A DNA stretch of 57,014 nucleotides, from contig JADEXJ010000018.1 in the NCBI GenBank assembly GCA_015207195.1, positions 1 through 57,014 of the forward strand, given 5' to 3'. Shown here one piece after another: positions 19,872 to 44,220 of the stretch. The position numbers and the translations under genes are program-made. Source of the DNA: Pleurocapsales cyanobacterium LEGE 10410 (GTDB lineage Bacteria; Cyanobacteriota; Cyanobacteriia; Cyanobacteriales; Xenococcaceae). The first letter of the stretch is position 1. Each line of letters starts with the position of its first letter. Below the pieces are notes generated by a model. That model was not told the DNA's origin and did no database searches. It was given only the letters and a program-made list of their open reading frames with translations.

Positions 19872-19985
19872 TTAGTAGTTAGTAGTTAGTAGAGAAGCCT
19901 AGCGAATTCCGTACAAGTTCGATTGATCGCCATTTGCTTCGGAATGTTATTCACCGATCTATCAGTTAATTATTTAAACCAGAAA

Positions 19986-20708
19986 ATGAATAGTTCTCAA
20001 TCAACAATTAACCAAGTTGTCAATATTAAAAATTTAGATCATTTCTTTGGTGAAGGAAAGTTAAAAAAACAAATTTTGTTTGATATTAATTTAACTCTCA
20101 ATACTGGTGAGGTTATTATTTTAAAAGGACCTTCTGGATCGGGAAAGACTACCCTACTAACTTTAATGGGAGGACTGCGATCGCCCCAATCGGGAAGCTT
20201 ATTAGTATTTGGCGAGGAGTTAGTTGGGGCAAACAAAAATCAGCTAGTTCAAATTAGAAGAAACATTGGTTATATTTTCCAAGACCATAATCTTTTGGCA
20301 TCTCTAACCGCCAGGCAAAATGTACAGATGTCTTTAGAGTTACATCACAACATTAAAACTTCAGAGATCGAACAAAGAGCGATCGCTCTTTTGGAATCTG
20401 TTGGCTTGGGCGAACATATCAACTATCATCCCCAAAACCTGTCGGGGGGACAAAAACAACGGGTAGCGATCGCCCGTGCGCTGGTTTCCCATCCCAAAAT
20501 GGTATTGGCAGATGAACCAACCGCAGCCTTGGATAGTAAATCTGGTCGAGACGTGGTGGAACTGATGCAACAGCTAGCCAGAGAACAAGGATGCACAATT
20601 TTGATCGTAACCCATGATAATCGTATTCTCGATGTAGCAGACCGCATCGTCGAACTAGAAGACGGTAAAATAACTTTAGATCGAGAACAACCAGCAATTG
20701 ATAACTAA
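19986..20708 (+). CDS. devA: DevA-like ABC transporter ATP-binding protein
   Basis: The nucleotide-binding subunit of the DevBCA exporter is recognisable by GPSGSGKTTLLTLMGGL (Walker A) and the Q-loop VQIRRNIGYIFQDHNLL. The signature NLSGGQKQRVAIARAL and the Walker B MVLADEPTAALD are also intact, and it ends with VTHDNRILDVADRI. The 21 extra codons upstream of 19986 read as unlikely protein, so the ATG at 19986 (MNSSQSTINQ) is chosen. It completes the devB-devC-devA order. A short gap and tandem repeats precede it, so it may need its own start signals. Confidence 0.9.
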   Translation: MNSSQSTINQVVNIKNLDHFFGEGKLKKQILFDINLTLNTGEVIILKGPSGSGKTTLLTLMGGLRSPQSGSLLVFGEELVGANKNQLVQIRRNIGYIFQDHNLLASLTARQNVQMSLELHHNIKTSEIEQRAIALLESVGLGEHINYHPQNLSGGQKQRVAIARALVSHPKMVLADEPTAALDSKSGRDVVELMQQLAREQGCTILIVTHDNRILDVADRIVELEDGKITLDREQPAIDN

Positions 20709-22885: not shown

Positions 22886-23191
22886 TTAAGTAGAAGCAAC
22901 TGGCTGGATTTTATTTATTTGTTCTGCTTCTTTGCTCAAAACTCGATAAATATCATTTGCTCTTTGTAAATTTAGCCAAAAGTCAGGAGTTGTATTGAAA
23001 TATTTAGCCAATCTTAAAGCCGTACTTGTAGTAATTCCTCTTTTACCGTTAATTAGTTCGTTAACTCTTTGATAACTAACTCCAATTCCATCAGCCAACT
23101 GCTGTTGAGTCAATCCCATAGGTTCGAGGAATTCTTCTCGTAACATTTCCCCTGGACTAGTTGGGGGTCTATTTGTAGGAATATTAACCAT
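22886..23191 (-). CDS. higA: HigA family antitoxin
   Basis: The protein is an XRE-type helix-turn-helix antitoxin. TSPGEMLREEFLEPMGLTQQ, then LADGIGVSYQRVNELINGKR, GITTSTALRLAKYF and NTTPDFWLNLQ are the HigA family signature. It neutralises HigB by protein-protein contact and represses the operon. The ATG at 23191 is chosen over an upstream TTG-type start because HigA homologues begin with this short N-terminus. It lies 10 bp after higB, in the toxin-first order typical of higBA modules. Confidence 0.9.
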   Translation of the reverse strand: MVNIPTNRPPTSPGEMLREEFLEPMGLTQQQLADGIGVSYQRVNELINGKRGITTSTALRLAKYFNTTPDFWLNLQRANDIYRVLSKEAEQINKIQPVAST

Positions 23192-23201
23192 AATTATTTT
23201 T

Positions 23202-23495
23202 TTAGTGATAATCAACAATTTCTACATCTTCTACGCCACTATCTGACCAGACAAAACAAATTCGATATTGGTCGTTGATACGAATACTATGTTGTCCTTT
23301 TCTATCGCCTTTTAAAGCTTCTAGTTGGTTTTTGGGTGGAGAACGTAAATCATATAAACTAGCTGCAAAATCTAACTGGTCTAGTTTTCGTCGGGCAACT
23401 TTCCATAAGTTTTGTGGACAAGTTTGACGTGCAGATTTTGTATCGTCTCCATTGAAAATGTCTTTTGTGCCTCGGTCTTTAAAATTGACTATCAT
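23202..23495 (-). CDS. higB: HigB/RelE-like plasmid maintenance toxin
   Basis: The 97-residue product fits HigB: IVNFKDRGTKDIFNGDD, a K-x-A-R-R-K-L-D-Q-L core, and the beta-hairpin QHSIRINDQYRICFVWSD near the end. HigB toxins bind the ribosome and cleave mRNA during translation. The RelE-family basic and aromatic residues needed for RNA contact, including the Arg in SIRINDQYRI, are present. The neighbour higA follows on the same strand. There is no plasmid signature, so it is a chromosomal module. Confidence 0.9.
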   Translation of the reverse strand: MIVNFKDRGTKDIFNGDDTKSARQTCPQNLWKVARRKLDQLDFAASLYDLRSPPKNQLEALKGDRKGQHSIRINDQYRICFVWSDSGVEDVEIVDYH

Positions 23496-24133: not shown

Positions 24134-24177
24134 TCCTTTTAAAACATGGCTTTTGCATCAGTAGTTAGGGCGATCGC
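24134..24177 (+). repeat. mfd start region (copy 2, native)
   Basis: This is the authentic mfd translation start, with the same TTTAAAACATGGCTTTTGCA block as 22831-22855. It marks the right edge of the duplication. Confidence 0.7.
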
Positions 24178-27100
24178 AAGTTCCCCGCTTACCAAAGAAC
24201 TAGTTAACAAACAACAACAGGGTCAATCCCTGTTGCTCAATGGTATTCCTCGCTTACCAAAAGGGATAGTTAGTTCTAGTTTGGCAAAAGCTGAAGATAA
24301 AAATTTGTTAGTGGTATGTCCTACCCTAGAAGAAGCAGGACGCTGGGCAGCCCAATTGGAGGTGATGGGGTGGCAGACGGTAAATTTCTATCCTACTTCC
24401 GAAGCAACTCCTTACGACCCTTTTGACCCCGAATCAGAGATAACTTGGGGACAGATGCAGGTTTTATCGGTTTTTGGTAAACAGTCATCAGTCATTGGTG
24501 AGAAGAAGACAGAGTTAAGGGAAAAAGGGAAAAGTGAAAATCATCAATCAGTTGCAATTGTCGCCACAGAGAGATCCCTCCAGCCACATTTACCGCCACC
24601 AGAAGTATTTGAATCTTACTGTCTAACGCTACAGCCAGGAATGGAATTGACCTCTAAGCAGCTAGATGAATCTTTGGCTAGGTTGGGTTATGAGCGAGTA
24701 AGCCTGGTAGAAACTGAGGGACAGTGGAGTAGAAGAGGCGATATTGTCGATATTTTCCCTGTTTCGGCAGAATTACCCGTAAGACTGGATTGGTTTGGCG
24801 ATGAACTGGAACAGATCAAGGAGTTCGATCCCGCCAATCAAAGATCTTTAGATAAGTTACCACAATTATTATTAACGCCAACATCTTTTAGTAACATAAT
24901 TGCTAATAGTATTTTGGAAAATGGCAAGAGTATCGAAAGCTATTTAGATGATGCAGAATTAGATGCTTTACTTGAAGGTAATCCGCCAGAAGGAATGAGA
25001 CGCTTTTTGGGAATTGCTTTTGAACAACCTGCTTCTATTCTTGACTATCTAACCGACAATACTTTGATTGCCTTTGACGAATTAGAACAGTGTCAGGCTC
25101 ATAGCGATCGCTGGTTAGAATTGGCTCAGTTTCAATGGCAGAGTTTACCGAACAGCCTGCCCAAAATACACGCCGACTTGCCAGATTGTCTTGCCAAAAC
25201 TGATAATTTCAACTGTATTTATCTCTCGGAAATTGCCGAAGCAAGCCCACATTTAGACATCGCAAATGCCGACAAAGTATCGGTACATAATTTGCAGGCG
25301 CGTCCCATTCCCACAACCCCTAATCAGTTTGCCAAATTAGCCAGTATCCTGAGAGGTAAGCGAGAAATATATAGTGGAATAACTTTAGATAAATATCGGG
25401 CTTGGTTGGTTTCAGCGCAGCCAAGTCGTTCTGCTTCCCTATTACAAGAACACGACTGCCCCGTTCAGTTTGTACCCAATCCCCAAGACTTTCGAGCAAT
25501 TGAGAAAGCCCAAATTCAAAGTACCGCAGTAGCAGTAAAATATTCTGGTTTAGCGGAATTGGAAGGCTTTATCTTACCTACCTATCGCATCGTAATTTTA
25601 ACAGATAAAGAATTCTTCGGACAGCAAACTTTAGCTACTGCTGGTTATATTCGCAAACGCCGACGGGCTGCTTCTAAAAAAGTAGATTTAAATAAATTAC
25701 GCCCTGGTGATTATGTGGTGCATAAACATCATGGCTTGGGTAAGTTTTTGGAACTAGAAACTTTAGTTCATCGTGAATATTTAGTTGTCAAATATGCTGA
25801 TGGTACATTAAGAGTTCCCGCCGATTCTTTGGATATGCTGACGCGATTTCGCCAGACAGGTAAGCGTCCTCCAGAATTAAATAAAATGGCAAGTACGTCT
25901 TGGTCAAAAACTAAGACGAGAGTAAAGAAAAATATTAAAAAGCTGGCAGTAGATTTATTAAAACTCTATGCCAAACGAGCGAAGCTTGAAGGTTATGCCT
26001 ATCCTCTCGATAATCCCTGGCAACAAGAACTTGAAGATTCTTTTCCCTATCAACCAACACCAGATCAACTCAAAGCTACCCAAGATATTAAAATAGATTT
26101 GGAAAGCGATCGCCCGATGGATCGTTTGGTATGTGGTGACGTTGGCTTTGGTAAAACCGAGGTAGCAATTAGGGCAATTTTTAAAGTAATTACTAGTGGT
26201 AACAAACAGGTGGCGTTTCTCGCGCCGACGACAATTTTGACGCAGCAGCACTATCACACTCTCAAAGAAAGATTTGCCCCCTATCCGATTAACGTCGGCT
26301 TGTTAAACCGCTTCCGCACTGCATCGGAGAGAAAAGAAATCATGCAACGGCTAGCTACAGGAGAGTTAGATGTCGTAGTAGGTACACAGCAGCTATTAAA
26401 CAAGGATGTCAAGTTCAAAGACTTGGGAATGTTGGTAGTAGACGAAGAACAACGGTTTGGGGTGAATCAAAAAGAAAAAATCAAGGCGTTTAAATCTCAG
26501 GTAGATGTCTTAACCCTCTCGGCTACTCCGATTCCCCGTACCTTATATATGTCCCTGTCGGGTATCAGGGAAATGAGTTTAATTACCACTCCTCCGCCAT
26601 CCCGTCGCCCAATTAAAACCCACCTTTCACCCTATAACCTCGAAGTTATCCGCAACGCCATCCGCAACGAACTTGACAGGGGTGGACAGATATTTTATGT
26701 CGTTCCCAGAGTAGAAGGCATTGAAGAAGTTAGCGGGCAGCTGCGGGAAATGATTCCCAATATCAAAATTGCGATCGCCCACGGACAGATGCCAGAGTCG
26801 GAACTAGAATCAACCATGCTTACCTTTAGCAACGGGGAGGCAGATTTACTGGTATGTACGACTATTATCGAATCGGGTTTAGATATCCCCCGCGTCAACA
26901 CAATTATCGTCGAAGATTCCCAAAAATTCGGCTTGTCCCAACTGTATCAGCTAAGAGGTAGAGTCGGGCGATCGGGGATTCAGGCACACGCCTGGCTACT
27001 ATACCCTAGTAAAACTACTTTATCAGATACTGCTCGTAAAAGACTGCGAGCTTTACAAGAATTTAGCCAACTCGGTTCGGGTTATCAACTAGCAACGCGA

Positions 27101-27703
27101 GATATGGAAATACGCGGGGTAGGTAGTCTCTTGGGTGCAGAACAGTCGGGACAAATGACCCAAATCGGCTTCGATCTCTATATGGAGATGCTGCAAGAAT
27201 CGATCCAAGAAATTCAGGGACAAGAAATACCCAAAGTTGAAGATACTCAGGTAGATCTCAAGCTTACTGCTTTTATCCCCGCCAACTACATCGCCGATCC
27301 CGATCAAAAGATGGATGCCTACCGCGCTATAGCCACCGCCACCTCAAAAAAAGAACTGGTACAGATTGCAGCGGAATGGGAAGATCGCTATGGGGCAATT
27401 CCTCCTGCAACCCAACAGCTAATTCAGGTAATGGAATTAAAGCAGATAGCCAAGGCGATCGGTTTTTCCCGCATCAAACCTGAAGGACAACAAAATATAG
27501 TCTTAGAAACTCCGATGGCTGAACCAGCTTGGAATAAGTTAGCAGAAAATCTACCCAAGCACTTGCGATCGCGTTTTGTTTACGCGCCAAAAAAGGTAAT
27601 CGTGCGGGGGTTAGGTGTGCTTAAGCCTCAGAGACAGTTGAATGATTTGATTGATTGGTTGGGTACAATTCACAAAGCTTTACCAGAGTTGGAGTTGGTT
27701 TAA
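24146..27703 (+). CDS. mfd: Transcription-repair coupling factor Mfd
   Basis: Mfd removes RNA polymerase stalled at DNA lesions and recruits UvrA. The UvrB-like N-terminal module, the RNA polymerase interaction domain ([18 protein letters not shown]), Walker [12 protein letters not shown] (about residues 664-674) and the DEEQ box (about 766) are present. Motifs [12 protein letters not shown] and [14 protein letters not shown] are intact, and the C-terminal D7 domain ends the protein. Residues about 112-138 ([20 protein letters not shown] and following) look like a repeat-derived insertion, rich in Ser, Lys and Glu and not typical of the family. Five HIP1 sites lie within the gene, unlike the neighbour pAgo. 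Confidence 0.95.
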
Positions 27704-27770
27704 TCTCGCGCAAAGACGCAGCCCTGAAGGATACCGCTTCGCATAAGGCGCGAAGAGATTTGATTTATCT
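27704..27770. repeat. Dispersed GC-rich repeat
   Basis: The stretch CGCGCAAAGACGCAGCCCTG, then GAAGGATACCGCTTCGCATA and AGGCGCGAAGAG, is typical of dispersed cyanobacterial intergenic repeats. It includes arms GCGCAAAG and CTTCGC. It separates mfd from the Argonaute gene. Confidence 0.55.
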
Positions 27771-27885
27771 GTTTGACTTCCAAAGTTATTCGCAAAAGTT
27801 AAATAAATACCGAGTAATATTAATTATTTAAGAGCTTTGGTTCTAGTATTTGGTGATGTAATAGAGATAATTGCTACTGATATAG

Positions 27886-30030
27886 ATGATAAAAGATAGT
27901 CCAAAAATTTTCCTCAATCGATTTCCTGTTAAAAAATTAACTGATGAAGATAAAAAGGTACAAGTTTATAGTTGTATATTTAATCCATCCCTCGAACCAG
28001 GAAAAGAATATTCTGCAATTAATCGAATAACTTGGAAGATAAAAATACCAGGAGTAAGATTCAAGTCTACAATAATAACAAAAAAATCAATAGCAGAAGA
28101 GTACTTAAAGCAAGACAATTGGACTTTACAACATCAAGGAACACAATTATTAGATTTAGATGTTGATTTGGAAAGAGAAGCATTAGAGAAATTAGAGAGA
28201 AAATGGATAGAAAGAGAATTAAGATCTAAACTATCAAGAAATAGAATTGATCGCGCTTCAGAAGGTGGATTTATTTGGTGGGATGCTGACGAAACTATTT
28301 TGCAAGATTTAGGTTGGGAAGTTCATAAAGGTGTCCGTTTGGATATTGAGCTTGATCGATTAGGATTTGTTTTTATAGAGATCGATCTTCACCACCGTTT
28401 TTATAGTGCTTGGACATTAGAACAATGGCTAGAAGATTATGGGGATATTCCAATCAAATGGGTTCGCAATACTTATGACGATCGCTCTTGGAAATTTATT
28501 CGAGTTAGCGATGAAGATCCAGAAACTACGATGATTTCTAATGTGGGAAGTCTAGCCGATTATCATCGAAATTTAGATAAAAATAAAGCTACAGAGGAAG
28601 AAATTAGAAATGCTCGCGTCGTGTATGTTGATGGTGGTAAAGGGAAAGAACTTCCTCATCTTTCTACAAGGCTACGACCTAGTATCACAATGGAAATTTT
28701 AAGCGAGTTACAAGATCGAGGTTCATCAGAAGCAGCCAAAGTCTTTAAACAAGTAAAGAAATCTATTGAGGAACGTTTTGATAAATCGACTAACACCGCA
28801 CAATGGTTGAGTAAAAATATTTACAATTCGACACGAATAATTAAGCCACAAGCAACGAAAGGATTTATTTTACGAAACAAATATCCTCTACTATTGACCA
28901 AATCAAAAAAAGTTTATCGACCAATAAATAGTTTGGATGAAGGCTGTTTTAGTACGGGAGAACAAAAGTTTGGCTGTTTAGATTTAGCAGGTAATGGTCA
29001 ATGGTCAAAATTCATTCAAAATAAGCTAGAGTACGTTGCCAAAAAAAGTGGCGTAGACATTGAATTAGAATCAGCAAAAAACCAAAACGATTTGCCAGAT
29101 AATATATTTACTCGCAAGCAATTTTGGCAAAATTGGTCAGACAAAGGAACTAATACTGTTTTGGTTATTACTCCTTGGTTACAGAACAATCAAAAAGCAC
29201 AATTACAAAAAGAAGCCTTAGAAGCCAATATTGCCCTTCAATTTATGCAGCCAATGTATAGAGAAGAAAAATATCGAATTGCTAACATTGTTTTAGGTTT
29301 ATTACTAGGGGCAAAATGGCAACCAGTCGGATTGGAACTTTTACAAGATAAATACGCAGCCGAAGTCGTTATTGGTTTTGACGCGGGTACAAATGGAAAT
29401 CTTTACTATGGAACGAGTGCTTTTGCTATTTTAGCCAACGGACAAAATTTAGGTTGGGAACTTCCAGAAGCCCAGCCAGGAGAAAAAATAAGTTCAGAAG
29501 CAATTATACGTACTGTTTCTAATATCGTTACTCGATTTCAAAAAATAGAAAATCGACTTCCTCATCGGATACTAATGCTGCGGGATGGCATCATACAATG
29601 TGAAGAGTTTGAGGATGTAGTAGCTTCTTTGTTAGGTAGTCAAATTGCCGTAGATCTTTTGAGTGTCAGGAAGAGTGGTGCTGGTAGAATGGCAGTACTA
29701 CCTTATCAATCTATATCCTTAATAGATGCTTCACCTGGAACGGCAATACTTTCTACTGATAAAAAGACATTCCGTATTGTAACTTCTGAAGCAAAAGCAG
29801 GAGGAAGCGCACGTCCTTTAAAAGTTGTTCGTGATTTTGGCGATGCACCTTTAGATATATTAGCCAGACAAGTAGATCGTCTATGTATGCTTAATCCAGC
29901 AAGTGCCTTTGCTTATAGTCGTTCGCCTTATGTTATTCATTTTGCGGACAGAATGGTAAAGACTATTCAGCGCATCAGAGAATTAGGTGTTTTACACGGG
30001 GTAGATCGGCAGAAGATTTTCTTTGCATGA
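27886..30030 (+). CDS. Prokaryotic Argonaute, long-A type, predicted active
   Basis: The 714-residue protein has the long-pAgo layout: N domain and L1 (about 1-160), PAZ region (about 160-270), L2 (about 270-380), MID (about 385-485) and PIWI (about 490-714). The PIWI half closely follows Thermus TtAgo, with VIGFDAG, PEAQPGEKI, LMLRDG, DLLSVRKSGAGR, RPLKVV, HFADRM and a C-terminal IFFA. The DEDD tetrad is complete: Asp499, Glu533 (glutamate finger), Asp567 and Asp688. MID basic/polar residues near K437, K442, Q452 and K477 fit a 5'-phosphate pocket. Such enzymes cut DNA with small DNA guides and defend against plasmids or resolve replication. The gene is AT-rich and HIP1-free. No partner helicase or nuclease lies beside it. 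Confidence 0.93.
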   Translation: MIKDSPKIFLNRFPVKKLTDEDKKVQVYSCIFNPSLEPGKEYSAINRITWKIKIPGVRFKSTIITKKSIAEEYLKQDNWTLQHQGTQLLDLDVDLEREALEKLERKWIERELRSKLSRNRIDRASEGGFIWWDADETILQDLGWEVHKGVRLDIELDRLGFVFIEIDLHHRFYSAWTLEQWLEDYGDIPIKWVRNTYDDRSWKFIRVSDEDPETTMISNVGSLADYHRNLDKNKATEEEIRNARVVYVDGGKGKELPHLSTRLRPSITMEILSELQDRGSSEAAKVFKQVKKSIEERFDKSTNTAQWLSKNIYNSTRIIKPQATKGFILRNKYPLLLTKSKKVYRPINSLDEGCFSTGEQKFGCLDLAGNGQWSKFIQNKLEYVAKKSGVDIELESAKNQNDLPDNIFTRKQFWQNWSDKGTNTVLVITPWLQNNQKAQLQKEALEANIALQFMQPMYREEKYRIANIVLGLLLGAKWQPVGLELLQDKYAAEVVIGFDAGTNGNLYYGTSAFAILANGQNLGWELPEAQPGEKISSEAIIRTVSNIVTRFQKIENRLPHRILMLRDGIIQCEEFEDVVASLLGSQIAVDLLSVRKSGAGRMAVLPYQSISLIDASPGTAILSTDKKTFRIVTSEAKAGGSARPLKVVRDFGDAPLDILARQVDRLCMLNPASAFAYSRSPYVIHFADRMVKTIQRIRELGVLHGVDRQKIFFA

Positions 30031-30323: not shown

Positions 30324-30740
30324 TTGTTGAAAATTTCAGAGCAAATCAGTATTCCTAGCAGTGAAATAGAGTTAAAAGCCGTTCGTTCGGCTGGAGCAGG
30401 GGGACAGAATGTAAACAAGGTGGCTACGGCGATACATTTACGTTTCGATATTGAAGCTTCCTCACTTCCTGATCGCTACAAATACAAGCTACTAAAATTA
30501 AATGATTCGAGAATCTCAACTGATGGTGTAGTTATCATCAAAGCACAACAGTTTCGTACTCAACAGCAGAATAGAGAAGATGCTTTAAAGCGACTCAAGA
30601 ACTTAATCAAAAGCATATCGATTCCTAAGAAGAAGAGACTTTTAACAAAACCGAGTAAGGGAGCAAGAAGAAGACGGTTAGATAATAAAGCTAAACGTGG
30701 TCAACTAAAGGCATTAAGAAAAAAAGTTGATTATGATTAG
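30324..30740 (+). CDS. arfB: ArfB-like GGQ-domain peptidyl-tRNA hydrolase
   Basis: ArfB (YaeJ) releases peptides from stalled ribosomes lacking a stop codon. The core runs SIPSSEIELKAVRSAGAGGQ then NVNKVATAIHLRFDI. The catalytic G-G-Q is at about residues 26-28. The C-terminal tail is strongly basic (KKKRLLTKPSKGARRRR) and would enter the mRNA channel, as in the family. At 138 residues it is of typical length. The start has two consecutive TTG codons and no ATG, so initiation is uncertain. It is separated from the pAgo gene by about 290 bp and probably independent. Confidence 0.85.
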   Translation: MLKISEQISIPSSEIELKAVRSAGAGGQNVNKVATAIHLRFDIEASSLPDRYKYKLLKLNDSRISTDGVVIIKAQQFRTQQQNREDALKRLKNLIKSISIPKKKRLLTKPSKGARRRRLDNKAKRGQLKALRKKVDYD

Positions 30741-31968: not shown

Positions 31969-32158
31969 AGGGCGGAGGTTCTAGTTTGCTCGCAAGAAAT
32001 ACGAGACTGTATTCTTAGCTGAAGTTATGCAAAATAACAAAAAATCAATTACTTTTATCAGGTACTAATTTTATCCTAAATCAATACGGCGATCGCCACT
32101 TTTAACCGTGAGGGCATTATTACCAAAATCAATCACAGTTAGCACACTGGAGAATTGT

Positions 32159-34690
32159 TCATTGCTCTTCAGCTAATTCTTCCTCTGGCATTTCTAGTAA
32201 CTCCTGAGTTGCTTCTTCCAAATCATTAAGCCTTAATAATTTGCTGGCTTCGTCGGCAGCTAGAGGACGACCAAACCAAAAACCCTGCATATTATGACAG
32301 TTTAGGCTACGTAACAATTCCACCTGTTCTTTAGTTTCCACTCCTTCAGCAATCACTTTCAAATTAAAGCCTTTTCCTAATTCGATTAGTGCTGCTACAA
32401 TTGCCAAATCTTGTGGACTATCAGTCATTTGTTGAACCAAAAAGCGGTCTATCTTTAAAGTATTCAACGAGAAGTGTTTCAGATATTCTATAGCCGAAAA
32501 TCCTGTAGTAAAACCATCTACAGCAAGACCTACACCTACAGTTTTCAATTGATTAATTAGATGTCGGCTATAGTCTATGTTTTCCATCAGACTGACAGCA
32601 CCAATTTCCAATTCTAAAAACCTAGAATCTATCTCAACTTCAGCTAAGATCTCGGCAACCTTCTGAGGTAAATTAGGCTGTTGGAACTGCACCGAAGAGA
32701 TGCTTACTCTAATTTTTAATGGCGGTAATCCTTGAGACTGCCATTTTTGGTGTTGAATACAGGCTGAGCGAATTGCCCATTCACCGATTGGCACAATCAA
32801 TTTGGTTCTCTCGGCTGATTTAATAAAATTGCCAGGAGCAACTAAACCCAATTCTGGACTTTCCCAACGCAGTAAAGCTTCAATAGCTTCTATTTCGCCC
32901 GTACTAACGTTAATTTGTGGTTGATAGTGTAGCTTAAATTCTTCTCGATTCAAGGCTTGCTGCAATAAATTTTCCAACTCTAGAGTTACTAAGGCTTGAG
33001 AATTCATCGTCTCGTCATAAAATTGGAAACTATCTTGGTTTTTGCCTGCACGTTCTAATGCTGTATTAGCACTTGCTGATAAGATCTCTACATCAGTTCC
33101 ATCCTGAGGATAAATCGCAACACCGATCTTACTTTGGGTAGTAACTTGCGTATCTCCTAGGGTAAAAGATTGTTCGATAGACTCTTGAATCCTTTGATTG
33201 ATTTTGGCTACTTCTTCTATACCACTAATTTGAGGCAGCAGTAGCGCAAATTTATCATCTTGCCAGTGAATAACCGTATCTCCCGCACGCAAACAAGCAT
33301 TTAATCTTTCACCTAGGGTTGATAGCAGCTGCTCGCTCTTTTTTGTTCCAATAGCAGCACGAATATCGGGTAAGAAACTGAGCTTACAAAACATTACGGC
33401 TAACAGTTTTTGGCTTCTTTTGGCATTGGCGATCGCTGTTAGTAGCTGCCGATTGAAAATCTCTTTCTTGGACCAGCCTACCGCTGAATATTGTAAACTC
33501 TCTGAAGAATAATTATTTTTGAGGCGATGAACAACTAAACAAATCTTTTCTGATTCAGAACCAATCAAGTCTATTTTCAGCTTTACACCAATTGGTTTGC
33601 TATTTCGATGACGTAAAAAACACTCTCCCCAAAAGCTATTTTTATCAGCCACAACTCGGCGTAAAATAGTGGCAAACTTATCTGATTCTGCCATAATTTC
33701 ATAGACATTCATCTGTAACATCTCAGCAGCTGAATATCCTAGCAGGTTGCTAATGGCAGAATTAACTTCTATTATTTGCTTGGTAGCTAATTCGACTATA
33801 ATAATTCCTTCAGTAATTTGTTGAACTATTTGATCGTAAAGTAGCTTGTTTTGCTGCAATTCCCTTGCTAAGGTTTTTTCATTACTGATATCTACGATGT
33901 AGCTTCTAATTACTTTTTTCTCAGGTAAGCGGTGAGCAGTTTGCCGAAAAGTTTTATTGTCTACCTGAACTTCTCTAACAGTCAAACTGTCGCGAGCTGC
34001 ATCATTTTGAGTAATCAGATTTTTTAAGATCGGGTGACTTAACTTTTGATGGTGAATATCCTTGAAATTCACTATACCCGCAGAGTTAATGTAGGTAATA
34101 TTGCCATATAGATCTATTTCAATAATTGGCTGTGGACTCAACTCAGTCAAGGCAGTCTGCTGAGATTCTAGACGTTTGCTTTTGTTTCTTGGGTTTTCAT
34201 TCAGACTAACAACCGTTTCCTTGTTGACCGCTGTATCTCGCACTTTTGGTAAATTGTCTACAAGGTCTTTAGATTCTATGACATTATTTGGCAGTTCTGA
34301 AGTAATTTTATATTTAGCTATAGCATCTGCGCTAAATTGCACCACATCACCAGGTTTTAGCTCGTGAACCAAGCTTTTTTTACCGTTGATATAAATACCA
34401 TTTCGGCTTCTATTACCCTGTAAATCTCCGTCTAAGATCCAATAAGAACATAGATTGGTTTTAACATCAGTTCTTCTCAAAAGGGTTGCGTGATTACGAG
34501 AAGTCTTTTGACAGGAAAAAACAATATCGTTGCTGGAATGACGACCAAGGGAATAAGTAGCAGCATTAAGATGAATTTCTCTGACAAAAGCAGGATCTTC
34601 AATTACTAATATGTGATGTACCAGATCTGAACTGTCCATTGTATGATTTTGGCTAAAATTTGTATTCGTATTGTTTTGATTATTAGTCAA
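32159..34690 (-). CDS. FHA-PAS-GGDEF-EAL protein with degenerate catalytic sites
   Basis: The order is FHA (about 25-130, with SLGRHSSNDIVF, S-R-N-H and NGIYINGKKS), two PAS domains (about 175-270 and 280-390), a GGDEF-type domain whose signature reads Q-D-D-K-F, and a C-terminal EAL domain starting EALLRW. In the EAL domain the N of VNLS reads S (RVSISSVQF), the E of EITES reads A (LEIGAVS) and DDFGTG reads VDGFTTG. K of KID, EGVE and QGFWFG remain. It therefore probably binds c-di-GMP or senses through FHA/PAS rather than making or cutting it. The start is TTG 34690, with an ATG at 34639 as the alternative. Confidence 0.85.
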   Translation of the reverse strand: MTNNQNNTNTNFSQNHTMDSSDLVHHILVIEDPAFVREIHLNAATYSLGRHSSNDIVFSCQKTSRNHATLLRRTDVKTNLCSYWILDGDLQGNRSRNGIYINGKKSLVHELKPGDVVQFSADAIAKYKITSELPNNVIESKDLVDNLPKVRDTAVNKETVVSLNENPRNKSKRLESQQTALTELSPQPIIEIDLYGNITYINSAGIVNFKDIHHQKLSHPILKNLITQNDAARDSLTVREVQVDNKTFRQTAHRLPEKKVIRSYIVDISNEKTLARELQQNKLLYDQIVQQITEGIIIVELATKQIIEVNSAISNLLGYSAAEMLQMNVYEIMAESDKFATILRRVVADKNSFWGECFLRHRNSKPIGVKLKIDLIGSESEKICLVVHRLKNNYSSESLQYSAVGWSKKEIFNRQLLTAIANAKRSQKLLAVMFCKLSFLPDIRAAIGTKKSEQLLSTLGERLNACLRAGDTVIHWQDDKFALLLPQISGIEEVAKINQRIQESIEQSFTLGDTQVTTQSKIGVAIYPQDGTDVEILSASANTALERAGKNQDSFQFYDETMNSQALVTLELENLLQQALNREEFKLHYQPQINVSTGEIEAIEALLRWESPELGLVAPGNFIKSAERTKLIVPIGEWAIRSACIQHQKWQSQGLPPLKIRVSISSVQFQQPNLPQKVAEILAEVEIDSRFLELEIGAVSLMENIDYSRHLINQLKTVGVGLAVDGFTTGFSAIEYLKHFSLNTLKIDRFLVQQMTDSPQDLAIVAALIELGKGFNLKVIAEGVETKEQVELLRSLNCHNMQGFWFGRPLAADEASKLLRLNDLEEATQELLEMPEEELAEEQ

Positions 34691-34987: not shown

Positions 34988-36514
34988 ATGTTGGCAAGAG
35001 TTTGGAGTGCAGCGATCGCAGGCATTAATGCCATTAAAGTAGGTGTAGAAGTTGATGTTTCTGGAGGACTGCCAAAAATCGTTGTTGTCGGATTGCCCGA
35101 TGTAGCTATTCAAGAATCTAGAGAAAGGGTTAAAGCAGCCTTAAAAAATGCCGACTTTGCCTTTCCCGTACGTAAAATTGTGGTCAATCTTACCCCCGCA
35201 GATTTGCGTAAGGAAGGTCCTTGTTTTGACTTACCGATTAGCGTGGGCATACTCGCAGCTTCAGAACAGGTAGACCCTCAATTGCTAGGAGACTATCTCT
35301 TATATGGTGAGGTATCCCTAGACGGTACTTTAAGAGCAGTATCAGGAGTATTACCCATTGCTGCTGCTGCACGTACAATGGGCATTGCAGGGTTAATCGT
35401 TCCTGCGGGTAATGCTCAAGAAGCAGCAGTAGTTAAAGATCTTGCAGTATACGGATTTGATAATTTAGGACAGGTGGCTGACTTTTTGAACCAACCAGCT
35501 AAATATCAGCCTGTAGTTGCTCAAGATCGACTGCCACAAGAATCTCGATCGCCGATCCTCAACCTAAAAGATGTCAAAGGACAGGTTCAAGCCCGACGAG
35601 CCTTGGAGATTGCAGCAGCAGGGGGACACAACCTGATTTTTGTCGGACCCCCAGGCAGTGGCAAAACTATGTTGGCGCAGCGTTTGCCAGGAATTTTACC
35701 CAATCTTTCTTTCCCTGAAGCCTTAGAAGTTTCCCAAATATATTCCGTTGCAGGCTTGCTTAAAGATCGAGGACAATTGATTACTCAAAGACCTTTTCGC
35801 AATCCCCATCATTCTGCTTCTGGACCGTCTTTGGTTGGCGGTGGCACTTATCCTCGCCCAGGAGAAATTTCTCTGGCTCACCGAGGTATCTTGTTTCTCG
35901 ATGAACTTACAGAATTTAAACGCAACGTATTGGAATACTTACGTCAACCTCTAGAAGATGGTCGGGTCACAATTTCTCGTACCCGCCAATCGGTAATTTT
36001 CCCCGCTCAATTTACTTTGATTGCCAGCACTAATCCCTGTCCCTGCGGTTATTTTGGCGATCCAATTCAAAACTGTACCTGTTCCCCTCGGCAAAGAGAA
36101 AATTACTGGGCAAAGTTGTCTGGTCCCCTGATGGATCGCATCGATCTTCAGGTGGCGGTAAATCGTCTCAAGCCAGAAGAAATGACCAGACAAACCATGG
36201 GAGAAGATACGGCAGCAGTTAGAGCCAGGGTAATTGTTGCCCGCCAGCTCGCCGAACAGCGTTTTGCAGGAGAAACGGAAATTAGCTGTAATGCCCAAAT
36301 GCGATCGCCCCATCTTAGAGAATTTTGTGTTTTAGATGAGGCTAGTCGTAGCCTACTCGAAAGAGCAATTCGCCAACTGGGTTTATCTGCCAGAGCAATG
36401 GATCGGGTGTTAAAAGTGTCTCGCACTATTGCCGATCTAGCTGGCGATCGCAACTTACAAAGCAATCATCTGGCAGAGGCAATTCAATATCGCACCATAG
36501 ACAGAATGCAATAG
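34988..36514 (+). CDS. comM: YifB/ComM-type Mg-chelatase-like AAA ATPase
   Basis: ComM is a hexameric helicase-like ATPase that extends heteroduplex during natural transformation. The N-terminal ChlI-like domain begins MLARVWSAAIAGINAIKVGV and has the Lon-like core VVGLPDVAIQESRERVKAAL. Walker A FVGPPGSGKTMLA and Walker B GILFLDELTEF are present, as is the ASTNPCPCGYFGDP sensor with conserved Cys residues (NCTCSPRQ). At 508 residues it is the usual size, and it starts at ATG 34988. Its presence suggests capacity for natural transformation, which fits a genome with foreign genes and a pAgo. Confidence 0.93.
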   Translation: MLARVWSAAIAGINAIKVGVEVDVSGGLPKIVVVGLPDVAIQESRERVKAALKNADFAFPVRKIVVNLTPADLRKEGPCFDLPISVGILAASEQVDPQLLGDYLLYGEVSLDGTLRAVSGVLPIAAAARTMGIAGLIVPAGNAQEAAVVKDLAVYGFDNLGQVADFLNQPAKYQPVVAQDRLPQESRSPILNLKDVKGQVQARRALEIAAAGGHNLIFVGPPGSGKTMLAQRLPGILPNLSFPEALEVSQIYSVAGLLKDRGQLITQRPFRNPHHSASGPSLVGGGTYPRPGEISLAHRGILFLDELTEFKRNVLEYLRQPLEDGRVTISRTRQSVIFPAQFTLIASTNPCPCGYFGDPIQNCTCSPRQRENYWAKLSGPLMDRIDLQVAVNRLKPEEMTRQTMGEDTAAVRARVIVARQLAEQRFAGETEISCNAQMRSPHLREFCVLDEASRSLLERAIRQLGLSARAMDRVLKVSRTIADLAGDRNLQSNHLAEAIQYRTIDRMQ

Positions 36515-36832: not shown

Positions 36833-38332
36833 TTAATAGCTATAGTTGCTTAGTTGTTTCTCTGATGTTTCATCTTGCCAAGTTTTGGTACAAACAACAA
36901 ACAATTCCACTCCATATTCATCGGACTGAATTTCTAGGGGCAAAGCACGGAATTTAGAATGAGAAAATAGCTTTTCGATGTCTTCGGCAGAGCGATAGAT
37001 TGAGTGCCATTCCAAGATATGCTCTAATAGAACACGGTCGGGATTGGCAGCATGAAAATTACCTAAAATCACGGTTCCGTTAGGCAACAGACGGTCGTAA
37101 ATCCAGTCGAGAATCCGAATCATTTCGCGATCGCGTAGATAGTTTGCCATACTAACGCTGTAGATCATCTGCTGGGGTGGGATCTCAATCTGACTATAGC
37201 CCTCAGCCAATAAAAAGAGATTGTCCTGAATAAAGGTTAAATTATCTCGAAAGCCCCATTTGTGAGCTATGTTAGCAGCAGACGTTAAATCTCGATGATT
37301 AAAGTCGATGCAGGTGGCATGAACGTTAGGCGGTGAAGTTTGAAAATAGAGGTCTAAGATTTCTGATGCCGAACCACTAGCGATGCTGGTGATGGGCATG
37401 GCGTTTTCTACGGGCCAATTTTCTGCTAGATCTTTAATAGTAGCGGTAACTATTCTCCCACGATTTTTTAAAGCCAAAAAGGTAGGCAAAGAACGAATCC
37501 AACGATCTAAGTAAATACCTATGTGTCCATCTCCTTCTGGTTCGTTTTGCGAGAGTAGTTCGGTGATATAAGAATCGCTGATACAGCCTCCTGGTCGGCG
37601 AAAAGCGCGATCGCAAAAGCTACTGAGCATAAAGAAAGGAAAGGTTTCGCGGAAGATATAAGTTCCAATTGCCTTTTTGATTTGTGGCTCTTGAATAACT
37701 TGCTCGCGTAGAGAACCGATCAGCATATTACAGATCTTGTTGATCTGCTCTTGTGCCTCCTGTTCGCTGGTTTCTTTACTGCGAATCCCTTGTTCAATCG
37801 CACTCAGGTTTTTCTTAAATAGCTCGGTTTCACTAATCAGTTCGGGAGGTATCGCATCTTGTCCTGCTTGACCCGTACGCTGAGTATCAAATTTCGGCGC
37901 AGTACGCACCCTCCGCGTTAAATGAGTCACCAAAGAAGAAGTCTGACGTAGCCGACTAGAAAGACTATGAGCCAGAGACTGATAAAAGCGGTCGGATAAA
38001 CCAGGTACGGAAGTTAGTAGAGAATATAGATTTTGTCGCTCCAAAATACAAACTTCCACATGATCTTGGGCTACTACTGCTGCACTGGTCGGAACTTCCT
38101 CCAGAAAAGACATCTCGCCAAAGATTTCCCCAGGCTCTAAAAAAGCGATCGCCACATCTCTACCAGAGGCTGCTCTTTCAATTCTGACCATTCCTTTACG
38201 AATCAAATATATTGCCTGAGACAAACGACCTTCCTTAAGAATTACTTCGTGTTGCTTATAAGTTGCAACACGGGCTTTTTCTAGTAGAACTTCGTAGTCT
38301 TTGCTCGTTAAATACTTTAATTTACTATCCAT
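36833..38332 (-). CDS. Cyclic nucleotide-binding domain fused to a methyltransferase-like domain
   Basis: The N-terminal third is a cNMP-binding jelly roll (KQHEVILKEGRLSQAIYLIR, GEIFGEMSFLEEVPTSAAVV). The phosphate-binding cassette GEMSFLEEVPTSA has Ser-Ala where cAMP-specific proteins have Arg, so ligand choice is unclear. A helical linker (about 130-270) precedes a class I SAM methyltransferase-like fold at about 290-480. This is visible as SIASGSASEILDLYF (motif I), ATCIDFNHRDL and IYSVSMANYLRD. Such fusions are annotated in other bacteria as factors for methyl-ester signalling compounds. It has an ATG start and is full length at 499 residues. Confidence 0.8.
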   Translation of the reverse strand: MDSKLKYLTSKDYEVLLEKARVATYKQHEVILKEGRLSQAIYLIRKGMVRIERAASGRDVAIAFLEPGEIFGEMSFLEEVPTSAAVVAQDHVEVCILERQNLYSLLTSVPGLSDRFYQSLAHSLSSRLRQTSSLVTHLTRRVRTAPKFDTQRTGQAGQDAIPPELISETELFKKNLSAIEQGIRSKETSEQEAQEQINKICNMLIGSLREQVIQEPQIKKAIGTYIFRETFPFFMLSSFCDRAFRRPGGCISDSYITELLSQNEPEGDGHIGIYLDRWIRSLPTFLALKNRGRIVTATIKDLAENWPVENAMPITSIASGSASEILDLYFQTSPPNVHATCIDFNHRDLTSAANIAHKWGFRDNLTFIQDNLFLLAEGYSQIEIPPQQMIYSVSMANYLRDREMIRILDWIYDRLLPNGTVILGNFHAANPDRVLLEHILEWHSIYRSAEDIEKLFSHSKFRALPLEIQSDEYGVELFVVCTKTWQDETSEKQLSNYSY

Positions 38333-42424: not shown

Positions 42425-43102
42425 TTAATTACTTGCAATCTGCTGATAAGGCGTTAAAAATAGCTGTTTTTCTGCAAGTCTACGTCTGGTCAATCCTGGA
42501 AACACGACTAATTGACCACCTTGGTTGGCTTTATTCCAACGAGGAAACTCTTTGGCTGCGCCAGCATAATCCCCTGCGTTGAGTTTTCTAATCAGAGTAC
42601 TGTTAGTCAGAATTCTCATTCCCGAATTGTAAACTAACGAAGTTAATGCCCCCAGCTGATGAGGATTTAAATCTACTTGAACATGAGATTTGACGAGGTT
42701 TTGAATATGCTGTAGCTCTTGCCTCAAAGCAATATCAGCCTGTGTTTGAGTGATATATTGACCGAGACGAACGGTTTGACCATTGATTCTGGTTTGTCCA
42801 TAGCCAACCACAGGTAATCCACTGGTATCTGTGTAGGCATAAGAGCGGAATCCTTCAAACTCTTTAACTAAGTTGATTGTTGCAGGAAGAACACTAACGT
42901 TGGACGCGACAATGTTCTTTTTTAATTCAAGATTAGGCTGATTATTGTGGTTGGTCGAGCTAGATTGAAGTTTTTGATGTATCTTAAGGTCAGATCTGCT
43001 CGCTGCTGAAGAATCATTGACAATAATGTTGGAAAATACTACGGCTGCCAAGAAAATTGTTGAATGATAGAAAATGTGAGAAATTCTTGAATTTGAAAAC
43101 AT
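42425..43102 (-). CDS. GH24 lysozyme-family protein, paralogue 1
   Basis: The catalytic domain has INLVKEFEGFRSYAYTDTSG followed by LPVVGYGQT. The first Glu (EFEG), the Asp (YTDTSG) and the Thr at the end fit the T4-type E-8-D-5-T triad. The rest, TQTQADIALRQELQH and GALTSLVYNSGMRILTNSTL, is typical of GH24. An N-terminal signal or anchor helix is seen (FYHSTIFLAAVVFSN). The ATG at 43102 is preferred over one 18 codons upstream because the paralogue begins MF at the same place. It lies about 420 bp downstream of its paralogue, transcribed in the same direction. Confidence 0.85.
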   Translation of the reverse strand: MFSNSRISHIFYHSTIFLAAVVFSNIIVNDSSAASRSDLKIHQKLQSSSTNHNNQPNLELKKNIVASNVSVLPATINLVKEFEGFRSYAYTDTSGLPVVGYGQTRINGQTVRLGQYITQTQADIALRQELQHIQNLVKSHVQVDLNPHQLGALTSLVYNSGMRILTNSTLIRKLNAGDYAGAAKEFPRWNKANQGGQLVVFPGLTRRRLAEKQLFLTPYQQIASN

Positions 43103-43521
43103 TCTATAGTTTGATAGATGATTTTTTTCTGGAAATGTGCACGAAAAACTTATCATCCATCTGGGTAAAAAAAGGTTAGTGCTTGCAAAAAATTGCTGTT
43201 CGCTACTTCTGTGCCTTAGCCGAGCCTGGGGTAGGGCGATCGCTTTAACTGTCCCAACCTAACCTGGCATCGCTATGGTAAATTGACCTCGTTTCCCAAT
43301 TTCTAAATCCAAAGCATAGTGCCTCAAAAGCAACCAATGTCTCAAGATAACTAGGTTTTACTGGCTCAAGCCCAACAAAAATAAACGGGTTTCACCGAGA
43401 AAGTTTAACTATCGATGAAACCCAAGTATCGTAATTGTGAATATTTTTTTTATTTGTCTATCTATTTATATAGAAATATTTTATGTTTCGTGGTGATTAA
43501 TAAATTTAATAAGATATGTTT
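43103..43521. other. Intergenic region between GH24 paralogues
   Basis: It contains an HIP1-like site near 43238 and a terminator hairpin at 43387-43423. No ORF is supported. Confidence 0.4.
43387..43423 (-). terminator. Terminator for the upstream GH24 gene
   Basis: The arms GGGTTTCA and TGAAACCC pair across a 21-base loop. On the minus strand a T-rich tail (GTTTATTTTTG) follows. It lies 99 bp after the stop of the 43522-44220 gene. Confidence 0.55.
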
Positions 43522-44220
43522 CTAGTTACTGGCTATTTGGTCATAATCAGACAAAAATAGCTTTTTCTCTGCCATTCTACGTCTGGTCAAACCCGAAAAT
43601 ACTACCAATCTACCGCCTTTATTAGCTTTGTTCCAACGAGGAAATTCTCTAGCTGCGCCAGCATAATCTCCTGCATTGAGCTTTCTAATTAGAGTACTGT
43701 TAGTAACAATTCTCATTCCTGCATTGTAAACTAACGAAGTTAACGCACCCAACTGATAAGGATTAAGCTTAACTTTAACCCGTGCAGCTACCTTGCGTTG
43801 AAGATGAGCTAGCTCTTTTTCCAAAGCAGCGTCAGCCTGAGCGCGAGTAATATATTGACCCAGTCTCACTCTTCTACCATTAATGAAACTTTGTCCATAG
43901 CCGATAACAGGCAATCCGCTGGTATCGATGTAGGCACGGGAACTAAAGCCTTCATACTGTTTGACTAAGTTGATGGTTTCTGGCAAAACTCGATAATTAG
44001 AAGCGACAATTTGTTGCTTAAGCTTTTTGGTAGTACTTTTTGGTGCTATGTTTAGATCGGTTTGATTTGGCTCGAATTCTTGAATACTGTTGCTGTAACT
44101 ATTGTGTTCTAGTTTGTTAGCTGCTATGGCGTGGGGAATGTTGTAAGAAGAAGCTAAAGCTACGACTAAAACTGCTGCGGATGAGTAACGGTTGGTAGAC
44201 AAAATAGATTTTAAAAACAT
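43522..44220 (-). CDS. GH24 lysozyme-family protein, paralogue 2
   Basis: The protein is a close paralogue of 42425-43102. It has a signal peptide (SSAAVLVVALASSYN, about residues 13-27), a disordered linker and the GH24 domain from LPETINLVKQYEGFSSRAYI onwards. Here the catalytic region reads QYEGF with DTSG and GYGQS, so the Thr of the triad is replaced by Ser. The substitution could alter activity. It likely cleaves peptidoglycan between NAM and NAG. Tandem placement suggests gene duplication. Full length is 232 residues with an ATG start. Confidence 0.85.
   Translation of the reverse strand: MFLKSILSTNRYSSAAVLVVALASSYNIPHAIAANKLEHNSYSNSIQEFEPNQTDLNIAPKSTTKKLKQQIVASNYRVLPETINLVKQYEGFSSRAYIDTSGLPVIGYGQSFINGRRVRLGQYITRAQADAALEKELAHLQRKVAARVKVKLNPYQLGALTSLVYNAGMRIVTNSTLIRKLNAGDYAGAAREFPRWNKANKGGRLVVFSGLTRRRMAEKKLFLSDYDQIASN

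Follow-up and report, generated by a model that had tools for sequence, protein, structure and literature searches.

Among prokaryotic Argonautes (pAgos), the closest described counterparts of the protein analyzed here are the cyanobacterial SeAgo and the TtAgo of Thermus thermophilus. SeAgo is reported to lower the uptake or maintenance of foreign DNA (PMC10653904); in Escherichia coli, it carries mostly DNA guides of 15-19 nt that are enriched for plasmid DNA, and its deletion is described as leaving the sensitivity of the host to the tested DNA-damaging agents unchanged (PMC10269773). The survey of Taton 2023 (PMC10653904) describes 20 of 160 cyanobacterial homologues that combine a PAZ domain with a DEDX site, are monophyletic and branch with the T. 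thermophilus protein, and names Stanieria and Pleurocapsa among the genera holding this active long-A group. ChAgo of Chroococcidiopsis, which has a DEDD site (PMC11817465), and LrAgo likewise are cyanobacterial DNA-guided nucleases; compared here by description only, ChAgo is nearest to LrAgo (PMC11817465), and LrAgo is reported to lie farther from TtAgo than SeAgo does (PMC10269773). The (Y/H/R)KQK motif is represented in TtAgo by R418-K422-Q433-K457, according to PMC9360449. The deviating MID* form of the motif is reported for 84 long pAgos (20%), and motif substitutions are reported to have disrupted guide interaction in other pAgos (PMC6299218).

We analyzed an ago gene of Pleurocapsales cyanobacterium LEGE 10410 in its genomic context, the window being the whole stretch of 57,014 nucleotides that was examined. 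The gene and its domains are as follows.

27886..30030, + strand: ago, long-A prokaryotic Argonaute of 714 aa (ORF; PADLOC pAgo, 877.6 bits; TtAgo, 260 bits)
28423..28680, + strand: PAZ domain, residues 180-265 (Pfam PAZ_3, 2e-25, all 88 profile positions)
28915..29268, + strand: MID domain, residues 344-461 (Pfam Ago_Mid, 16 bits, below the cut-off; alignment to TtAgo)
29209..29970, + strand: PIWI domain, residues 442-695 (Pfam Piwi, 22 bits, below the cut-off)
29380..29382, + strand: catalytic D499 (alignments to TtAgo)
29482..29484, + strand: catalytic E533 (alignments to TtAgo)
29584..29586, + strand: catalytic D567 (alignments to TtAgo)
29947..29949, + strand: catalytic D688 (alignments to TtAgo)

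The ORF begins with ATG and is uninterrupted across its 714 codons. The PADLOC pAgo model (PDLC02387) covers residues 7-714, a second PADLOC model, PprPIWI, matches residues 8-713 with 606 bits, and the best match among solved chains is TtAgo (phmmer, E 3.7e-76, query residues 81-713). The PAZ_3 score of 89.6 bits, against a cut-off of 27, assigns the protein to the PAZ-containing pAgos. In both the phmmer and the MAFFT alignments, D499, E533, D567 and D688 are in register with the TtAgo tetrad, which we take to be D478/E512/D546/D660, in agreement with the phmmer numbering, and form a DEDX site. The description of the gene in the sequence-only reading, as a complete, TtAgo-like long-A pAgo with an intact DEDD tetrad, thus holds. 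The host genome (6.64 Mb, 392 contigs) contains a single match to the PADLOC pAgo model; Pfam Piwi (PF02171) alone gave no match in this genome at E 0.001, ago included. An AlphaFold model built from two sequences, the window protein and its close relative L001 (Hyellaceae cyanobacterium CSU_1_1; NCBI places Hyellaceae in Pleurocapsaceae, Pleurocapsales), has a mean pLDDT of 29.1. The window protein is about 30-34% identical to the Thermus homologues among the plasmid records listed, and the Thermus gene is plasmid-borne in those records, whereas the window ago lies on a 57-kb contig amid housekeeping genes.

The phylogenetic position of the protein was assessed with a tree of 45 rows, built by a quick method and rooted at the midpoint, in which TtAgo has a long branch and no row is named as SeAgo. 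The window ago joins those of G387 and G388, the latter a genome from the genus of the window, at 100% and then the rest of its family at 99%; SH-aLRT support for the clade's 22 cyanobacterial rows is 98%, rising to 99% for these together with TtAgo as the sister group, and 22 other cyanobacterial pAgos fall outside. The long-A placement of the sequence-only reading is thereby supported: the protein groups with TtAgo and the cyanobacterial members of its clade, apart from those 22 pAgos. Because the tree contains no long-B proteins, the case against a long-B affiliation is made by the tetrad together with the PAZ match and the ranking of the PADLOC models. The protein shares with the SeAgo clade the PAZ, MID and PIWI domains with DEDD, the solitary gene and the grouping with TtAgo, SeAgo itself being placed by the description in Taton 2023 (PMC10653904). 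Given this placement within the group described there, the window ago is a further member of the known active cyanobacterial long-A clade, sister to TtAgo.

The guide-binding pocket of the MID domain sets the window protein apart from the other members of the clade.

29194..29241, + strand: span of the MID pocket residues K437, Q441 and Q452, equivalent to TtAgo R418, K422 and Q433 (alignments; TtAgo motif as given in PMC9360449)
29308..29310, + strand: Gly475, codon GGG, at the position of TtAgo K457 (alignments)

Aligned to TtAgo, the 5'-phosphate motif of the window protein reads K437-Q441-Q452-G475. In the set of 45 rows, which consists of the clade and the 22 cyanobacterial pAgos from outside it, position 475 is lysine in the 44 other rows and glycine in the window only. 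Within the 28 clade rows (a count that takes in the window, TtAgo, the G398 copy with its frame break and two open pieces from broken copies), this position is Lys in 27 and Gly in one, and position 441 is R in 19, Q in six, E in two and K in one, with all the Q and E rows coming from the family of the window. Thus, Gln or Glu at the K422-equivalent is usual in this family, and Gly at the K457-equivalent is found in the window only. The codon is GGG as against AAA or AAG in eight relatives; an assembly error is possible, the species being represented by one genome. Compared with the canonical motif (Y/H/R, K/R/Y, Q, K; as given in PMC6299218), KQQG departs at positions 1, 2 and 4; every cyanobacterial row of the clade has K at position 1, and the departure at position 4 is confined to the window. 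By the definition in PMC6299218, the window protein is a MID* long pAgo and, such proteins being one kind of long pAgo, still belongs to the long-A group. Its KQQG contrasts with KRQK in all 15 cyanobacterial clade rows examined from outside the family and with R-K-Q-K in TtAgo, and the 22 cyanobacterial pAgos outside the clade, unlike the window protein with its K, have Y at position 1.

The pocket bears directly on whether the protein functions. The sequence-only reading had called it catalytically competent; the tetrad on which this call was based is present, but since the MID pocket lysine, kept in every other row, is replaced by Gly475, DEDD alone is insufficient to read competence. The window protein may be inactive because G475 removes a motif residue whose substitution is among those reported to have disrupted guide interaction in other pAgos (PMC6299218). 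It could even be that K475G crippled guide loading and that the gene is turning into a pseudogene, as in several relatives. Such early decay would be in keeping with the universal lysine in the other rows, with the two or three base changes needed to pass from AAG or AAA to GGG, with the copies in pieces in G396 and G403, the single frame break in G398 and the 3' remnant in G390, and with the 23 family-unique residues of the window ago as against 9, 10, 12 and 13 in four relatives (although G070 has 55). We nevertheless consider it unlikely. The 714 codons are open, and the window departs at only four of the 131 columns that are invariant in 18 other full rows (P36L, L108I, K475G and L680S), compared with 0-9 departures by the same count in the other full rows, which argues against a general slackening of the gene by this measure. 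The dN/dS of ago is 0.14 against both G387 and G388 (0.05-0.06 for mfd), so that ago appears to be under purifying selection. Furthermore, K477, which occurs in 18 of the 28 clade rows, or the basic residue 442, found in the nine family rows compared, might compensate in part for the missing lysine. The GC3 of ago is 0.22, as against 0.24-0.45 for the other window ORFs listed.

Another interpretation is that the pocket has moved to 5'-OH or register-shifted guides with DNA slicing retained. Two of the four motif positions are neutral, the MID* form is reported for 20% of long pAgos (PMC6299218), and PliAgo, with an unusual pocket, has a glycine (G542) at the K457-equivalent, the same residue as Gly475 (PMC9360449). 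However, PliAgo is described as lacking the whole motif and cutting RNA with DNA guides (PMC9360449), whereas the window protein retains K437 and Q452, and the change is seen in one sequence and in no other row of the 45. Accommodation of noncanonical guides therefore seems distinctly improbable.

The distribution of ago is patchy. In the phylum, 35 of 386 sampled genomes have a match to the pAgo model at E 0.001, and eight of these score at least 847 bits; in the order, 15 of 388 genomes match the window protein at E 1e-60. Among 60 relatives, 11 match: 10 of the 27 genomes of the family, the window included, which have intact, broken or partial copies, and one distant genome. Six of the 10 family copies are open over the full length (window, G387, G388, G404, G397 and G070); the G398 copy has one frame break near residue 654, which could be a sequencing error, those of G396 and G403 have broken into several pieces, and all that is left in G390 is residues ~607-713. 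All 11 genomes of the genus of G089 match the pAgo model. The G070 protein is 66% identical to that of the window in ago and 88% in mfd, and both G070 and G396 lie near the window in the mfd tree but at a distance from it in the ago tree; the histories of ago and host therefore differ there. Taken together, these patterns indicate that ago has been gained and lost within the family. The window protein had no matches in the phage records searched, and the six stretches of viral contigs that matched a pattern did not code for a relative of ago. The plasmid search yielded 37 records, all below 60% identity and 28 of them from Thermus, with no cyanobacterial genera in the tally. Two genomes contain two copies each: those of G430 have equal scores and are about 12 kb apart (G430:C10:18383-20533 and 32147-34297), and those of G427 are full length with unequal scores (G427:C1:2020411-2022594 and 2303621-2305762).

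Upstream of the window ago lie mfd and a spacer.

24146..27703, + strand: mfd, 1185 aa, upstream neighbor of ago with no shown partnership (Pfam UvrB_inter, CarD_TRCF_RID, DEAD, TRCF)
27565..27578, + strand: GCGATCGCGTTTTG inside mfd (in relatives, seven of nine duplicated mfd tails start at positions equivalent to 27565-27570)
27704..27885, no strand: mfd-ago spacer, 182 bp (one terminator-like hairpin, no promoter-like match)

No promoter-like sequence was found in the 182-bp spacer, and the scanned region that includes it has one terminator-like hairpin as against 1.8 expected in shuffles. A repeat-like stretch with a hairpin follows the mfd stop directly (27706-27760), and a similar-looking stretch follows mfd in G387. 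Downstream, ago ends 293 bp before an arfB-type ORF (30324-30740); a higBA pair is located at 22886-23495. As positions, a solitary ago next to mfd and close to higBA, as first described, are correct by the ORF map and Pfam. This neighborhood is not evidence for a defense module: higBA goes with mfd, since its counterpart, identified by clustering, flanks mfd in G387, where ago lies elsewhere, 26 kb from mfd on the opposite strand (97 kb in G404). Nor is the adjacency of mfd and ago: the window and G388 are the only members of the family in which ago comes straight after mfd, and the 3' end of mfd appears to have taken up inserts repeatedly in this family.

Elsewhere in the family, according to Pfam on one copy of each neighbor and clustering for the remainder, ago is found beside a cobN/bchH-type gene (G404, G397 and G398), between ilvC and an ndhB-type gene (G070 and G396) or after an acrB-type gene (G403), that is, among housekeeping genes in several places. 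We also considered whether mfd-ago-ilvD might be the ancestral order, as ilvD lies downstream of ago in G388, separated from it by two genes, and comes after the ago remnant in G390; this reading was dropped, the supposed ilvD of G395 being a thiamine-pyrophosphate enzyme. PADLOC detected no neighboring defense genes: 10 of the 13 neighboring window ORFs had no match within the limits applied (mfd itself being outside the scan), and three had partial ones, namely an ABC ATPase at 19923-20708 (Mad3), the ORF at 36833-38332 (Pycsar models) and HigA (HTH models). We rejected the Mad3 assignment because the match (6.5e-30), the one strong score of the scan, covers just 83 residues and Pfam ABC_tran identifies a general ABC-transporter ATPase. 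The ORF at 36833-38332 (- strand) encodes a cyclic-nucleotide-binding protein, and the partial Pycsar effector and cyclase matches lie across that domain. A Mg-chelatase-like AAA protein by Pfam is encoded 5 kb from ago (34988-36514, + strand); it is presumably of the ComM/YifB type, and ComM has been linked to natural transformation, a process that SeAgo lowers.

Could the Argonaute work together with Mfd, in repair or in transcription-replication conflict? The co-directional adjacency in the window and G388 would fit such a link, as would the genus of G089, in which five of 11 genomes have mfd 4.1-4.2 kb from ago and a sixth has it at 16 kb; this closeness may be a coincidence because the neighbor was chosen after the fact. 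Against joint function, ago has the other neighbors listed above in the rest of the family, mfd is present in 30 of 30 genomes searched irrespective of ago, duplicated mfd tails can account for the adjacency, and the deletion of SeAgo is reported to have left host sensitivity to 4-NQO or nitrofurazone unchanged (PMC10269773), an argument against a partnership with Mfd in repair. We regard a functional link as extremely unlikely.

Comparison of the mfd-ago junctions points instead to the mfd 3' end. In G388 and G387, an extra copy of the last ~40 mfd codons stands directly before ago. Altogether, nine duplicated mfd tails were found in six relatives (loci L001, L046, L054, L098, L165 and L166): one in G388, three in G387, one in G390, two in G396, one in G406 and a partial one in G409. 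Seven of these nine scars begin within the same six bases, inside GCGATCGCGTTTTG, with unrelated sequences upstream in the alignment; the remaining two (G396 and G409) have start points further along. We take GCGATCGC to be the abundant cyanobacterial HIP1 octamer. The genes located between intact mfd and a scar, or between scars, differ: Uma2 and a 112-aa ORF in G390, a DUF29 protein in G406, XisH-XisI followed by pilin-like, glyoxalase and potassium-channel genes in G387, RmuC in G396, and no listed ORFs of at least 90 aa in G388 and G409. Uma2 directly precedes a scar in both G390 and G387, and no recombinase was recognized among the inserts looked at.

As a control, 267 ORFs in 21 loci were searched for a duplicate of their 3' end within 6 kb. 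The matches were mfd in three loci and otherwise two apparent sets of tandem paralogues (window 42425/43522 and L096 6147) and one repeat-rich L096 ORF. The window pair (42425-43156 and 43522-44220, - strand) consists of related genes with 3' ends 77% identical, the first of which matches Pfam Phage_lysozyme. Of the 373 genomes of the order that match the mfd tail, nine do so more than once: five of the 25 in the family of the window, where the G390 tail, split over a contig end, is counted twice, and four in genus g16, which could include whole paralogues. No mfd-tail scars were seen in the examined stretches of the genus of G089. A search for ago remnants around mfd or arfB of relatives (L094-L105) found none at E 0.1 except in L101, and that match (E 0.06) was dismissed because it lies inside mfd.

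Most simply, the scars would reflect inserts that arrived repeatedly at a single spot near codon 1140, with each newcomer bringing a fresh mfd tail and the old one staying in place. The window has no scar, its mfd-ago order being the scar-free form; its insertion history is therefore inferred from the relatives. Hence ago probably adjoins mfd in this lineage because the mfd 3' end repeatedly receives inserts, rather than through joint function. Uma2 and XisH are PD-(D/E)XK-like; our guess at a mechanism is one-sided break repair begun by an insert-coded nuclease. In the literature covered by our search, which excluded most subscription journals, we recognized no earlier report of ago with mfd in cyanobacteria, of mfd as an integration site, insertion hotspot or cassette site, or of Uma2/XisH/DUF29 in cyanobacteria. 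A bolder and rather doubtful proposal is that the protein is a slicing-competent long-A Argonaute whose 5'-phosphate pocket is being lost step by step (KRQK to K[Q/E]QK to KQQG) and that uses 5'-OH or loosely anchored DNA guides; separately, it holds that ago would occupy an unrecognized cassette-type insertion site, the mfd 3' end, where newcomers restore the gene and the old last ~45 codons are left as a scar.

Overall, we consider it likely that the window encodes a solitary SeAgo-like long-A Argonaute acting in DNA-guided interference with incoming or multicopy DNA, with an altered guide pocket, the gene being one that is gained and lost and the mfd 3' end a place that receives inserts. 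DNA-guided DNA cutting that limits incoming DNA follows as an expectation from clade membership. The protein would take up short DNA guides derived from degraded DNA and, by analogy with SeAgo and TtAgo, would cut matching DNA with its DEDD site, and this cutting would lower the establishment of plasmids and of DNA that is taken up. Guides with a 5'-phosphate would be held more weakly, or through other contacts, because two of the four pocket positions are neutral, with Gln at the K422-equivalent and Gly at the K457-equivalent. Defense thus remains the best guess, as proposed when the gene was singled out as a prime candidate, but it now draws on SeAgo and gains no support from the neighborhood. 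A role in replication, with the protein aiding chromosome decatenation as reported for TtAgo, is very unlikely in our estimate: TtAgo belongs to the same clade in the 45-row tree, and E. coli under ciprofloxacin is reported to be helped by SeAgo and LrAgo, but the same report describes the own host of SeAgo as not protected from ciprofloxacin (PMC10269773), and ago is patchy and decaying in the family of the window.

As this case shows, whether a pAgo works cannot be judged from an intact DEDD tetrad: the guide pocket differs here at a position occupied by Lys in every other row examined. The window protein and its 78-79% identical relatives that keep the pocket lysine would constitute a natural test of the weight of this residue. 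A landing site used repeatedly at the mfd 3' end in this family would account for a neighborhood open to misreading as a functional link, and may offer a route of small-scale gene exchange.
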